Shown here: positions 4,292 to 9,534 of the stretch, in pieces
How the letters are laid out: each line of letters starts with the position of its first letter
Position numbering within the stretch: the first letter of the stretch is position 1
From: Candidatus Cloacimonadota bacterium
Lineage (GTDB): Bacteria; Cloacimonadota; Cloacimonadia; Cloacimonadales; TCS61
Direction of reading: 5' to 3'
DNA length: 51,239 nucleotides
Assembly: GCA_021734245.1 (NCBI GenBank)
Contig: JAIPJH010000011.1
Span: 1-51,239, forward strand
Notes under the pieces: generated by a model
Databases searched by the model: none
Told to the model about the DNA's origin: nothing
Seen by the model: the letters and a program-made list of their open reading frames with translations, nothing else
Translations under genes and position numbers: made by a program

Positions 4292-4366
4292 ATGAAGAAA
4301 TTGATAAAGTATCGAAATAAACCACATTCCCGTTATCTGCTGGGATGTGGTTTTTTTTGTTTTTAA
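4292..4366 (+). CDS. 24-residue leader ORF after the riboswitch
   Basis: The ATG at 4292 is five bases after GGAGG in the riboswitch 3' end. The frame encodes a Lys/Arg-rich start (MKKLIKYRNK) and ends inside the terminator T-run with GCGFFCF and TAA. It could be a leader peptide, the remnant 5' end of a gene displaced by the following repeat, or chance. No homologue is recognised. Confidence 0.3.
   Translation: MKKLIKYRNKPHSRYLLGCGFFCF
4320..4358 (+). terminator. terminator hairpin, riboswitch expression platform
   Basis: ACCACATTCCC pairs with GGGATGTGGT (one bulge) and is followed by eight T residues. Its position 30 bases after the TPP aptamer suggests transcriptional attenuation in addition to control of the ribosome binding site. 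Confidence 0.8.
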
Positions 4367-4410
4367 ATGTAATTCTGAAGAAAGAAACTTCGGAATGAAG
4401 ATGAAACAAG

Positions 4411-4562
4411 ACGTCTTCCTGAGGTATCTACAGATTTTCAAAGAAAATCTTCTTACTGCGGCATATAGCTTTGCTTTCGACTGTGTCCGGCGAAGCTTTG
4501 CGAAGACGGAAGGATCTCGTGAAAACTCTTTTAGTTTTACTTCTCGGAAATGCAATGGAGAT
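4411..4562. repeat. dispersed GGATCTC-family repeat, copy b
   Basis: Positions 4468-4521 match the reverse complement of 22832-22885 with a mismatch of one base (54 nt). The unit begins CGTCTTCCTGAGG and contains GGAAGGATCTCGTG. The rest of the gap (4563-4689) holds two more hairpins: TTCTCCT/AGGAGAA near 4609-4626, and CTGAACCACTC pairing with GAGTGGTCAG near 4633-4655. These separate the riboswitch and terminator from the receptor gene. Confidence 0.8.
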
Positions 4563-4689
4563 CGTTTCGTAAGAAATTTTGTAAGATTCCTCGCAAAGAC
4601 AGTACACTTTCTCCTCGATAGGAGAAGGTGGTCTGAACCACTCGTGAGTGGTCAGATCGGATAAGGTTGAAAAAAAAGGAGCGAAAAAG

Positions 4690-7146
4690 ATGAAGAAATT
4701 ATTTTTAATTATATTTATAATATTTTTAGCTGATCTGCTATTGGCAGATACTCTGATCGGTCAAATTCGATCAGCAGAAGAAGATAAGGCTTTGGAAGGT
4801 GTTTCTGTTTATCTTGAAGGAATGAATAAAGGCACGATAAGCGATGAAAAAGGAAATTTTGTAATTAAGGATCTGGAACCAGGACATTACTTTATAAATT
4901 TCACTCGCATGGGTTATAAATCTTTTCAGAAAGAAATTGATTTCCCCCAGGTTTACAGTTTGCAGATCAAGTTGAAAAGAAAACCGACTATGATCGAAGG
5001 AATGCGCGTTTCATCGACAGTTGCGGTGGAAAGAGAAACACCAGTTACATTTACGAATATGAAAAAAAAGGAAATTGAGGAAGCTAATTTTGGTCAGGAT
5101 ATTCCCATGCTGATGAATGAACTACCCAACGTATTTTCTTACGCAGATGCCGGCAGCCCGATGGGATATTCTTATCTCAAAATTCGCGGTTTCGATCAGA
5201 AGCGAATTGGGGTGATGATCAATGGAATTCCCCTCAATGATCCGGAAGATCATCAGGTTTACTGGGTTGATATGCCCGATTTTGCTGAAAGCATTTCCGA
5301 TATTCAATTCCAGCGCGGAGTAGGAAGTTCCATTTACGGAGTTTCTACTTTTGGTGGTTCATTGAATATGCAGACAAATCATGCAACTAAGAAAGAAGGT
5401 TCCGAACTTTTTGCTAATTTTGGAAGTTATAATACTGTAAAATACGGCTTCAAAACAACTCATGATATAATGAACTATTTCAAACTCAATCTACGGCTTT
5501 CCCGCATCACTTCCGATGGTTATCGAGATAACAGCAAAACAGAGCAGCATTCCTATTTTGCAGGTCTCAGCAAGATCGGAGAACGCAGCATCACGGAACT
5601 TAATTTCTACGGTGGGAACGAACTCACTCATGCTGCCTGGTACGCCTCCTGGGAAGGTGATCTGCAGGAAAATCACCAGCACAATCCCATCACTTATGAT
5701 AATGAAATCGATGATTTCAGCCAGCCACATTATGAATTGCATCACAAATATATGATCAACGAAAACCTGAATTCAGAAAATTCTCTTTTCTACATAAAAG
5801 GGAAAGGTTATTATGAACAGTACAAAGAAGATCGAGATCTCTGGGAATTTGGTCTGGCAGCCGATCCTGAAACGATCGAAACTGATCTGATCCGCCAGAA
5901 ATGGGTAGAAAAAAATCAGTATGGCTGGGTGGGAAATCTGCATTGGAACCATCGGTTTGGAAATCTTACAATTGGCAGTTATATCAGCCTTTTCGACAGC
6001 GAACATTGGGGAGAAATTGAAGAAGTTATTGGAGCTGATACTTTAAGTGTCAGTTATGAGAAAAATCAGGAATATCACAATTACACAGGAGATAAAAAAT
6101 ATTATACATTTTACATCAATGAAATCTTCAAACCAATTGAAAAAATAAGTATCATGGCAAACCTTCATTATCAGATGATCGACTATAAATTCCGGCAGCA
6201 TGAATCCGGTAATTTTGCCGGTGAAAATCTTCATTCCTACGAAGTTGATTACAACTTTTTCAATCCCAGATTTGGAGTTAATTACAACTTGAATGAATCG
6301 TTCAACATTTATGGAAATCTTTCTTTTGCGCAACGTGAGCCAACCGATGGCGAACTTTTCGATCTGTGGGATGGACCGGACGATTTAGGCGTTGCCCCGC
6401 TTTTTGCCAATGCAGATACGATTTATGTGAATGGCCAGATCGATCACATCAAGTGGAGCGATCCTTATGTGAAAGAAGAAAAGCTGATGGATATTGAATT
6501 GGGATTTGGTTACGATGCCGGAAGTTGGAAAATCAAAGCGAATCTCTTCCAAATGAATTTCCAGGATGAAATTATCGGCTATGGAACTATGGATGATGAT
6601 GGTGATCCAATCCGTGGAAATGCCGATGAAACAGTGCATCGCGGAGTGGAGCTTGAAGTGAAAGCAGAAATATTTCCAGATCTGAGTTTGAGTGGAAGTT
6701 TCAGTTACAACGATAATTATTTCGAGAAATTTATTATGAAAGACTGGGATGCCAACTGGAATGTTATCGATGTAGATTATTCCGGTAATAAAATAGGTGG
6801 TTTCCCCGATATTCTAGCAAGTTCCAAACTTTCTTATGAATGGAAATCTCTATTGACTTCCTTGCAAATTCAACACGTTGGAAAACAATATCTGGATAAC
6901 ACGGAAAATGAAGATCGCATTGTAGAAGCATATCAACTTTTGAATTTTGGTTTTAGTTATAAATTTGATGAATTACTAAAGAAAACAGACGTTGCCGTGA
7001 ATTTGAAAATTAATAATCTTCTGGATAAAGAATACGAAACATCTGGCTATTATGATCCGTGGGGCGGACCTGACTGGAGTGGTGCGAATTATTATTTTCC
7101 CGGAGCTGGAAGAAATATAATTGCAGGAATCAGAGTAGGATTTTAG
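4690..7146 (+). CDS. TonB-dependent outer-membrane receptor, probably for thiamine
   Basis: The product is 818 residues. It has a signal peptide (MKKLFLIIF..., cleaved near LLLADT), then a carboxypeptidase-regulatory-like beta-sandwich (about residues 20-100; GQIRSAEE, GVSVYLEG, GNFVIKDLEPG). A plug domain follows (about 115-230; YLKIRGFDQKRIGVMINGIPLND, GSSIYGVSTFGGSLN), then a C-terminal barrel ending in Phe. The start at 4690 follows AAAAAAGGAG and the signal peptide; an earlier in-frame start at 4648 would add a charged tail. Such receptors pull scarce ligands across the outer membrane using TonB energy. The upstream TPP riboswitch suggests thiamine, as proposed for riboswitch-linked receptors in Bacteroidetes. 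The substrate remains inferred. Confidence 0.9.
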   Translation: MKKLFLIIFIIFLADLLLADTLIGQIRSAEEDKALEGVSVYLEGMNKGTISDEKGNFVIKDLEPGHYFINFTRMGYKSFQKEIDFPQVYSLQIKLKRKPTMIEGMRVSSTVAVERETPVTFTNMKKKEIEEANFGQDIPMLMNELPNVFSYADAGSPMGYSYLKIRGFDQKRIGVMINGIPLNDPEDHQVYWVDMPDFAESISDIQFQRGVGSSIYGVSTFGGSLNMQTNHATKKEGSELFANFGSYNTVKYGFKTTHDIMNYFKLNLRLSRITSDGYRDNSKTEQHSYFAGLSKIGERSITELNFYGGNELTHAAWYASWEGDLQENHQHNPITYDNEIDDFSQPHYELHHKYMINENLNSENSLFYIKGKGYYEQYKEDRDLWEFGLAADPETIETDLIRQKWVEKNQYGWVGNLHWNHRFGNLTIGSYISLFDSEHWGEIEEVIGADTLSVSYEKNQEYHNYTGDKKYYTFYINEIFKPIEKISIMANLHYQMIDYKFRQHESGNFAGENLHSYEVDYNFFNPRFGVNYNLNESFNIYGNLSFAQREPTDGELFDLWDGPDDLGVAPLFANADTIYVNGQIDHIKWSDPYVKEEKLMDIELGFGYDAGSWKIKANLFQMNFQDEIIGYGTMDDDGDPIRGNADETVHRGVELEVKAEIFPDLSLSGSFSYNDNYFEKFIMKDWDANWNVIDVDYSGNKIGGFPDILASSKLSYEWKSLLTSLQIQHVGKQYLDNTENEDRIVEAYQLLNFGFSYKFDELLKKTDVAVNLKINNLLDKEYETSGYYDPWGGPDWSGANYYFPGAGRNIIAGIRVGF

Positions 7147-7947: not shown

Positions 7948-7996
7948 AAAATATTCCTCCTAAATTCAAACTAATGTATATTATTCAAGTTTCTTT

Positions 7997-8023
7997 AGTC
8001 AAGAAAATCGTTTATTCTGCCTG
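7997..8023. repeat. left direct repeat flanking the DUF6788/nucleotidyltransferase module
   Basis: This 27-nt word recurs at 9148-9174 in the same orientation with two mismatches; the central 21 nt (8000-8020 and 9151-9171) are identical. The pair brackets the two-gene module at a distance of 1151 bp. Confidence 0.85.
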
Positions 8024-8047
8024 ACATTTTTCAAGCAAATAAAGTCT

Positions 8048-8113
8048 GTTAGGCAATAATTTCTTGACAGAAAATGCCTAACAATAAGGTGTTATTGCAT
8101 GATTTGTTAGGCA
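8048..8113 (+). promoter_or_regulatory. promoter with three GTTAGGCA operator-like boxes
   Basis: GTTAGGCA occurs at 8048-8055, inverted as TGCCTAAC at 8075-8082, and again direct at 8106-8113, seven bases before the ATG. The first two form an inverted repeat around TTGACA (8064-8069), a perfect -35 box. No convincing -10 box was found at 17 bases. The arrangement is typical of an autoregulated promoter; the binding protein is not known. Confidence 0.65.
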
Positions 8114-8120
8114 GGGATTT

Positions 8121-8435
8121 ATGAGTATTATTAATGATATTCTAATTGAAGAAAAAAATAGGTTGTTAGATCTGTTGGAGCAGTTTGAAAAGGAATTGAG
8201 AAATCTTCCCAAGGGATCTATTTCATACAAAGAACGAGGAAAACATATTTACTGTTACAGAGCTTTTCGAGCAGGGAAAAAGATTATTTTTCAGTATCTG
8301 GGCAAAGAAAATTCTGATCAAGTAAATGCAATGAAAGAAAAAATTCTTAGAAGAAAAAATCTTGAGCAAAAAATCAATGAAATAAAAAAAAATTTACAGG
8401 AAGTACGTAGAGGTTTAGGTGAAAAACAAAAATAA
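8121..8435 (+). CDS. DUF6788-like small protein, possible antitoxin or partner
   Basis: The product is 104 residues. The centre reads GSISYKERGKHIYCYRAF followed by KKIIFQYLGKE, which resembles the DUF6788 pattern (GS..y...g..YyY..r..gKv...YLG). Both ends are charged and helix-forming; residues about 72-104 look like a coiled coil. AGGG lies upstream of the ATG. It overlaps the next gene by 17 bases, so the two are translationally coupled. Small upstream proteins paired with nucleotidyltransferases often act as antitoxins or DNA-binding regulators; here that is inference. GTTAGGCA boxes at the promoter suggest autoregulation. Confidence 0.65.
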   Translation: MSIINDILIEEKNRLLDLLEQFEKELRNLPKGSISYKERGKHIYCYRAFRAGKKIIFQYLGKENSDQVNAMKEKILRRKNLEQKINEIKKNLQEVRRGLGEKQK

Positions 8436-9111
8436 ACTTTTTGAAAACATTTTACTTGCTTTAAACAAAGCAGGAATTCTGCAAGACATTATATTAATTG
8501 GCAGTTGGGTTCTGCCAGTTTATAAATATCACTTTTCTAATTCAGCTGGAATTCCAATTCTACGAACTACAGATATTGATTTTTTGATTACAAATCCACC
8601 CGGAATCAAAAAGAAAGTAGATGTTTCGGCAATTTTAAAATCCTTAGGTTTTGAAGAAACTTTTTCTTTATTGAATAATTTTACCAAGTTTTCACATGTC
8701 GATTTTGAAATAGAGTTTTTGATTCCCAAACTGGGAAGAGGAAATGACAAAGCTATTTATATTGAAGAACTCAATGTTATTGCTCAGCCCTTAAGATATC
8801 TTAATTTCATTCAAAATAATACAATAGTTATGGATTTTGGTATTATGAAGATTCGAGTACCGGAACCGGCAGCTTTTGTTTTAATGAAATATCTACTGAC
8901 AATCAAAAGAAAAGATGAAAAAAAAATCGCCAAAGATTTACGAACAGCTAACGAATTAACCGATTTTTTATTATCAAAATCTGATCAAAGAAAAAACCTC
9001 AAAATACTATTTTCAGAAATGCCCAGAAAATGGCAAAGAAAATTAATGAAAATTATTTATGATAACTGCTTTGAGCTTTATAAGCTTTTGACAGAAGAAT
9101 CTGAGACATAA
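8419..9111 (+). CDS. GSU2403-family nucleotidyltransferase-fold protein
   Basis: The product is 230 residues with a GTG start preceded by AGAGG. The N-terminal motif IGSWVLPVYKYHF, then RTTDIDFLI with the two catalytic-type aspartates, and a later EIEFLIPKLGRG are the hallmarks of the polymerase-beta-like nucleotidyltransferase fold of the GSU2403 type (NTP_transf_8). A helical C-terminal part (about 140-230) contains PAAFVLMKYLL and a RKWQRK segment. The substrate of this family is not known to me. Coupling to the small upstream gene and flanking direct repeats suggest a mobile toxin-antitoxin-like or defence module. That is a hypothesis, not something the sequence proves. Confidence 0.75.
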   Translation: MKNKNKLFENILLALNKAGILQDIILIGSWVLPVYKYHFSNSAGIPILRTTDIDFLITNPPGIKKKVDVSAILKSLGFEETFSLLNNFTKFSHVDFEIEFLIPKLGRGNDKAIYIEELNVIAQPLRYLNFIQNNTIVMDFGIMKIRVPEPAAFVLMKYLLTIKRKDEKKIAKDLRTANELTDFLLSKSDQRKNLKILFSEMPRKWQRKLMKIIYDNCFELYKLLTEESET

Positions 9112-9147
9112 CTCAATACAAAACTCCTTCTTTTCTATTTTTTTTTG

Positions 9148-9174
9148 AGCCAAGAAAATCGTTTATTCTGCTTG
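9148..9174. repeat. right direct repeat flanking the module
   Basis: Second copy of the 27-nt word at 7997-8023, same orientation, with two mismatches. It lies 36 bases after the nucleotidyltransferase stop. Confidence 0.85.
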
Positions 9175-9180
9175 TGAACT

Positions 9181-9534
9181 CTAACAGCATCCCTCTCCGC
9201 AACCGCATTTACCCGATGAAGCCGAAGAGGAACAATTGCATTCTTCCACAGTTCCTTGCTGGATATCTGCCTGGTATTTCTGCATTCTCAATTTTCGTAA
9301 CTCGTTCAAATCGTCACGATTTACAATGATCTCCATGCCAGCTTGCGGTTTGGTGCAGCAGGCATACTGGATCGCGTTATTGATCTCAATGGCACACACC
9401 TGACAGCAGCCGAAAGGACGACCAGCCAGGAAACAGGGAGCCGGAATTGTAATACCGTTCTCTTTGGCTATTTGCACAAGATTCAGATTTGAGTCGGTTA
9501 CTGTTACTTCTTTTTTATCGATTGTGATTTGCAT
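9181..9534 (-). CDS. 2Fe-2S ferredoxin-like protein with Cys-rich tail
   Basis: The product is 117 residues. Residues 1-75 are a plant-type 2Fe-2S domain of the kind found at the N-terminus of NuoG and hydrogenase subunits. Cysteines are arranged as PAPCFLAGRPFGCCQVC and then YACCTKP. After a linker the last 20 residues are Cys- and Gly-rich (ECNCSS..., GKCGCGEGCC), which could bind a second metal or cluster. AAAGGAG precedes the ATG. It lies 46 bases downstream of the flavoprotein gene on the same strand, so the two probably form an operon and may exchange electrons. The partner enzyme is unknown. Confidence 0.8.
   Translation of the reverse strand: MQITIDKKEVTVTDSNLNLVQIAKENGITIPAPCFLAGRPFGCCQVCAIEINNAIQYACCTKPQAGMEIIVNRDDLNELRKLRMQKYQADIQQGTVEECNCSSSASSGKCGCGEGCC

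Follow-up and report, generated by a model that had tools for sequence, protein, structure and literature searches.

A direct repeat frames a two-gene operon in Candidatus Cloacimonadota bacterium (contig JAIPJH010000011.1, assembly GCA_021734245.1), and the question raised by this locus is whether the repeat records the arrival of a small mobile unit, and what such a unit would encode. The window, meaning the whole stretch of 51,239 nucleotides that was analysed, had been read by an initial annotation as carrying a small cargo cassette between repeats, possibly a mobile toxin-antitoxin or defence unit. We examined the two genes, their promoter, the repeat and the homologous modules of other genomes, and found a linked gene pair of likely toxin-antitoxin type that is bracketed by direct repeats far more often than control positions.

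The gene pair and its promoter

The downstream gene (8419-9111, + strand) starts with GTG, overlaps the upstream gene by 17 nt and encodes a nucleotidyltransferase (NTase) of 230 aa. As shown by profile search, it was rightly called NTP_transf_8 (PF12281; 75.5 bits against a gathering cut-off of 26.3; E 7.5e-21), and the profile matched all 20 NTase homologues; PF12281 was the only Pfam match, with no membership of DUF1814/AbiEii. The motifs G28-S29, T50-x-D52-x-D54 and E99 are intact, giving the GS...DxD plus third acid set of MenAT and AbiE toxins. G28, T50, D52, D54 and E99 are invariant and S29 is nearly invariant in the 20 homologues, as would be expected of a nucleotide and metal site. 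Foldseek comparison of the AlphaFold model (pLDDT 91.8) returned MenT1 (E 6e-5) and MenT3 (E 8e-4), with ANT(2'') also among the best solved matches.

The upstream gene (8121-8435, + strand) encodes a small basic protein of 104 aa, the proposed antitoxin and autorepressor, with a pI of 9.8 (9.6 to 11.2 across homologues) and a predicted fold of a helix, three strands and a long helix (pLDDT 93.1). Searches with this protein found no Pfam or NCBIfam family above cut-off, no AbiEi/COG5340-type match, no HEPN match and no PDB relative, and the fold search gave no confident match. Among 23 homologues no Pfam family matched beyond chance, and DUF6788 matched none of the 23 at E <= 0.01. The DUF6788 label of the initial annotation is unsupported because the small protein has no Pfam, PADLOC or PDB relative. 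The PADLOC anti-phage defence profiles matched neither the small protein nor the NTase.

A lack of linkage of the two families in other genomes had been named by the initial annotation as evidence against its reading; the small gene in fact lies beside the NTase gene in 83 of 84 fetched loci from six phyla, the one exception being cut by a contig end. In a scan of one genome per species, all 25 loci carried the small gene directly upstream of the NTase gene, and these loci span Cloacimonadota, Spirochaetes, Atribacterota, Actinobacteria, Omnitrophota and Clostridia. The distribution is sporadic in the phylum of the window, where the NTase occurs in 4 of 125 genomes; in Omnitrophota it occurs in about 77 of 384 genomes, some of these matches being weak or partial. 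The genomes compared are metagenome assemblies. No relative of the module was matched on plasmids, phages or viral contigs.

Upstream of the operon, a TTGACA box resembling a -35 element (8064-8069, + strand), unchanged across the four Cloacimonadota modules that were aligned (those of the window, G012, G009 and G003), is surrounded by four candidate operator half-sites on the + strand: TGCCTGACA at 8018-8026, TGTTAGGCA at 8047-8055 in inverted orientation to the first, TGCCTAACA at 8075-8083, and TGTTAGGCA again at 8105-8113, 7 nt ahead of the ATG. Conservation with relatives begins at half-site 1, and this left end of the module is sharp and constant in Cloacimonadota modules. An inverted repeat matching in at least 8 of 9 positions within 70 nt of the ATG was found in 71 of 76 loci; an upstream control gave 5 of 72 and shuffling 24 of 380. 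Between the arms, 58 of the 71 have a hexamer resembling a -10 element. The arm sequence varies by clade (TGCCTAACA, TTACCAGACA, TTTACACTA or GTTACCNNACA) while position and spacing stay constant, as would be expected of an autorepressor co-evolving with its operator. Two further observations concern the right end: at L069 (4600-4660) a second operator-like inverted repeat overlaps and follows the NTase stop, and modules of the TTTACACTA clade often keep a half-site, TGTAGTGTAA, just past that stop.

Among known systems, the module is closest in organisation to MenAT and AbiE (DUF1814), with which it shares two overlapping or adjacent genes with the antitoxin first (as proposed for the module in the window), the NTase fold with GS and DxD motifs, and paired inverted repeats over the promoter; the promoter of the MenAT-related Rv2827c carries four repeats in two pairs (PMC7319586). 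The first metal-binding Asp of the NTase (D52) is also preceded, at a distance of two residues, by a residue with a hydroxyl group (T50), as D41 of MenT1 is by T39, the site of antitoxin-induced autophosphorylation (PMC11375011); regulation of this type may by analogy be shared by T50. Unlike those systems, the module NTase belongs to PF12281 rather than DUF1814 and is related by fold only, its partner is a helix-three strand-helix protein of 100 aa without winged-helix or COG5340 resemblance, and its half-sites are 9-bp arms about 20 bp apart instead of 23-bp repeats. HEPN-MNT is likewise a two-gene unit with an NTase-fold protein, but the module lacks a HEPN partner. MNT is about half the size of the module NTase.

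Direct repeats around the module

The left copy of the repeat in the window lies at 7990-8023 and the right copy at 9141-9174, both on the + strand. A 27-nt word with 21 identical nt at a distance of 1151 bp had been claimed, and this held: the words at 7997-8023 and 9148-9174 share 25 of their 27 positions, 21 of them in one unbroken run (8000-8020 and 9151-9171), the start-to-start distance is 1151 bp, and the repeat grows to 34 nt with 30 identical. What lies between the copies is exactly the operon (8121-9111) with its promoter, again as described before. The final 6 nt of the left copy overlap half-site 1, so that this copy ends within the half-site, where DNA conservation with relatives starts; the right copy starts 30 nt past the NTase stop, and a convergent ferredoxin-like gene (9181-9534, - strand) ends 6 nt away from it. 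The repeat is non-coding and intergenic, and no recombinase is encoded between its copies.

We then considered whether the repeat could be a common intergenic element, a possibility which had been raised against the cassette reading. At up to 3 mismatches the repeat word has 2 matches in the window, with 0 expected from shuffling. The 21-mer occurs in the 3.1-Mb genome only at its two sites in the window, and at up to 2 mismatches it is absent from 122 other genomes of the phylum; a dispersed intergenic repeat is ruled out for the window. The local alignment score across the module was 24, compared with a maximum of 13 for mismatched flank pairings from other loci. A single-copy site without the module had also been sought. 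No such site was found for the window because no close relative shares the locus: homologues of the adjoining outer-membrane gene were found in two genomes, where the other neighbours are missing, and the ferredoxin-like gene has no close homologue in the two other genomes of the genus. An empty MATE transporter locus was found for the relative G012.

To compare homologous modules, the 600 bp before the module start were aligned with the 800 bp after the NTase stop in 68 usable loci, and same-sized positions elsewhere in the same loci served as controls (n=538). A direct repeat flanks the module in 18 of 68 loci against 10 of 538 controls, which is 14 times commoner (P 4.9e-12); some of the repeats at other loci are hairpin or dispersed elements, and the enrichment stays at P 5.6e-5 once these cases and the window are dropped. 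The right copy starts within 30 bp of the NTase stop in 9 of the 18 (P 5e-9). The other 50 of the 68 modules have no detectable bracketing repeat. The repeats measure 18 to about 250 bp, are diverged and differ from locus to locus, and therefore represent target sequence rather than element sequence. A target-site duplication by a transposon was considered and rejected on the length range, divergence and locus specificity of the repeats, with no transposase present. Three related genomes share the module flanks, which suggests vertical inheritance there. A serine recombinase was found near the module in only 2 of 78 loci, both in one genome, by motif and phmmer search, and no tyrosine recombinase was detected near modules by a regular-expression screen, which is an insensitive one.

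Insertion targets at other loci

The targets of the bracketed modules are of several kinds. In G324, the module directly follows an intact tRNA-Ser gene, and 18 bp of the tRNA 3' end are repeated after it. In G342, a tRNA-Ser related to that of G324 is followed by a tandem series of four att-like sites, each a 70-bp repeat (L176/L177; G342:C1, about 568000-576000); the intervals contain cargo of unrelated genes in segments of 1 to 3 kb, the module stands alone in one of them, and no recognisable integrase is encoded inside the array. At L050, the module has an intact MATE transporter gene on its right and a 5' fragment of that gene on its left. The relatives G010 and G014 carry the MATE gene without module or duplication, and in G009 the module lies upstream of the same MATE gene. 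The same arrangement of fragment and intact gene is found at L171 for miaB, named by eye from its start, and at L069 and L153 the module is flanked by copied gene 3' ends. At L136, a large serine recombinase gene (4350-5981; G337:C11) lies directly downstream of the module, and the element sits at a gene 3' end; L153, with the module alone, occupies the same gene end, and in each of the two loci a copied gene end lies on the far side.

The copied gene ends of L050, L171, L069 and L153 differ by 40 synonymous and 12 non-synonymous codons, two of the latter, in L050, being counted upstream of its start codon; in the coding part, the L050 MATE copies differ by 6 synonymous codons. The copies differ mainly synonymously, and therefore both derive from functioning alleles, not from the decay of one after duplication. 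Displaced and regenerated target-end repeats are present in L137, L135, L136/L153, L050 and L171. In integrative islands of the Islander type and those at dusA, a regenerated target and a displaced fragment mark both ends (PMC4383910, PMC8409611), and the repeat pattern seen here matches that signature. The likeness to islands at tRNA genes and gene ends extends to the tandem arrays at tRNA-Ser in G342 and the serine recombinase in L136. In contrast to such islands, however, the module is about 1.2 kb long, has only two genes and usually no recombinase, its targets vary by locus, and the window has an intergenic repeat.

Integron gene cassettes and pdif modules are also small, repeat-bounded mobile units that often carry toxin-antitoxin genes. 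The half-site sequence GTTAGGC/GCCTAAC resembles an attC core. The half-sites nevertheless lie at the promoter, are clade-specific and are usually absent at the right end, and the module has no IntI and no Xer-type 6-bp spacer, with bracketing repeats that differ per locus. The attC reading was rejected, as the half-sites that occupy this promoter position in other clades are unrelated; the attC of a cassette lies at its 3' end, and no site follows the NTase gene in the window.

Several loci carry decayed or partial modules. In G003 the NTase is frameshifted, and a gene pair identified by eye as Phd/YefM-like and RelE/ParE-like adjoins the decayed module (L006:2726-3332; G003:C263), which suggests a toxin-antitoxin hotspot. 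At L039 (3601-3927; G038:C41), a small gene with a four-half-site operator has no NTase gene after it and is a solitary remnant of the proposed antitoxin. In G377:C40 (L119:654-4370), the module is present twice at a distance of about 2.7 kb, and the NTase of the upstream copy is truncated. In G026:C127 (L038:3923-4136), a half-site pair stands alone, without module genes, between copies of a 544-aa gene's 3' end, which are 83% identical to each other; the pair looks like the scar of a lost module.

Proposed function and mobility of the module

Our conclusion is that the locus holds a MenAT/AbiE-like toxin-antitoxin module which represents a new type of pair and spreads as a minimal, usually recombinase-less integrative cassette. 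A bicistronic toxin-antitoxin-like unit, with the NTase as toxin and the small protein as antitoxin and repressor, that moves as such a cassette is in our judgement the probable reading, held with fair confidence. The toxin-antitoxin role is likely, judging from fold, active site, gene order and operator. A defence role, also raised by the initial annotation, gains no support beyond these features, as no PADLOC profile matched. As toxin, the NTase would act by nucleotide transfer to RNA or protein, in the manner of MenT toxins at tRNA 3' ends; the small basic protein, which is produced first, would neutralise it and may repress the operon by binding the four inverted half-sites (8018-8113) that flank the promoter. 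The proposal that the two genes are the cargo of a cassette is sustained by the 14-fold excess of repeats over controls, the varied tRNA and gene-end targets and the strict linkage; it stops short at the window in that no empty site was found there. The same insertion signature appears to be present in the window, but its repeat is short and non-coding and has no recombinase inside.

For its arrival, the module would come joined to a copy of the end of its target. This could occur by site-specific recombination at gene or tRNA ends, with a recombinase that acts in trans or has since been lost, or by recombination with homology on one side only, and either route may apply to the window. The new and displaced copies of the target end would then stay as flanking direct repeats, and loss through recombination between them would be counter-selected by the toxin, which may keep the bracketed state. 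A stronger form of this proposal, tentative and in our estimate possible without being probable, is that cassettes of about 1.2 kb, among the smallest integrative cassettes known, carry nothing but the new NTase toxin-antitoxin pair; recombinases acting in trans would move them into the ends of varied genes and tRNAs, tandem arrays included, and addiction would lock them against repeat-mediated loss.

The main competing account of mobility does without a site-specific recombinase. The module might have spread by transformation and recombination between relatives, one side being homologous in a shared neighbour gene and the other joined illegitimately (homology-facilitated illegitimate recombination) or by way of a circular donor, so that integration is additive and duplicates the flank; the mechanism is known in bacteria (PMC3240628, PMC3784515). 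The synonymous differences of the L050 copies, which point to two functional alleles, the MATE loci of G010, G014 and G009, and the lack of a recombinase at most loci agree with it. It leaves unexplained the att-like tandem arrays at tRNA-Ser and the serine-recombinase version at the gene end shared by L136 and L153, and the sharp, constant left end in Cloacimonadota also speaks against it. We regard this account as rather unlikely. That the repeat in the window is a local accident, either a tandem duplication or an old intergenic repeat around an ordinary, vertically held operon, seems to us improbable. Its shortness (34 bp) and non-coding nature, the lack of a recombinase and of an empty-site genome, and the 50 of 68 relatives without repeats fit an accident, but the 21-mer is unique to two sites that sit tightly around the operon, homologous modules are bracketed likewise far above control, and the module turns up only sporadically within the phylum (4 of 125 genomes).

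On function, NTase-fold proteins stand on both sides of toxin-antitoxin pairs (PMC11586414), and the fold search also returned aminoglycoside NTases. The NTase might accordingly be antitoxin-like, as MNT AMPylates HEPN, or a housekeeping nucleotidyltransferase, and the small protein would then serve as target or regulator of the NTase. We consider this unlikely: the small protein, basic and of helix-strand-helix build, shows neither HEPN fold nor Pfam match, the operator geometry fits a repressor antitoxin, and the gene order is antitoxin-first.

These results add a widespread NTase toxin-antitoxin-like pair, common in Omnitrophota and spread across at least six phyla, of which no published description was found in the open-licence literature searched, and offer a natural series of co-evolved repressor-operator pairs. 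They also provide a testable case for the question of whether insertions between direct repeats, which would be lost otherwise, are stabilised by addiction modules.
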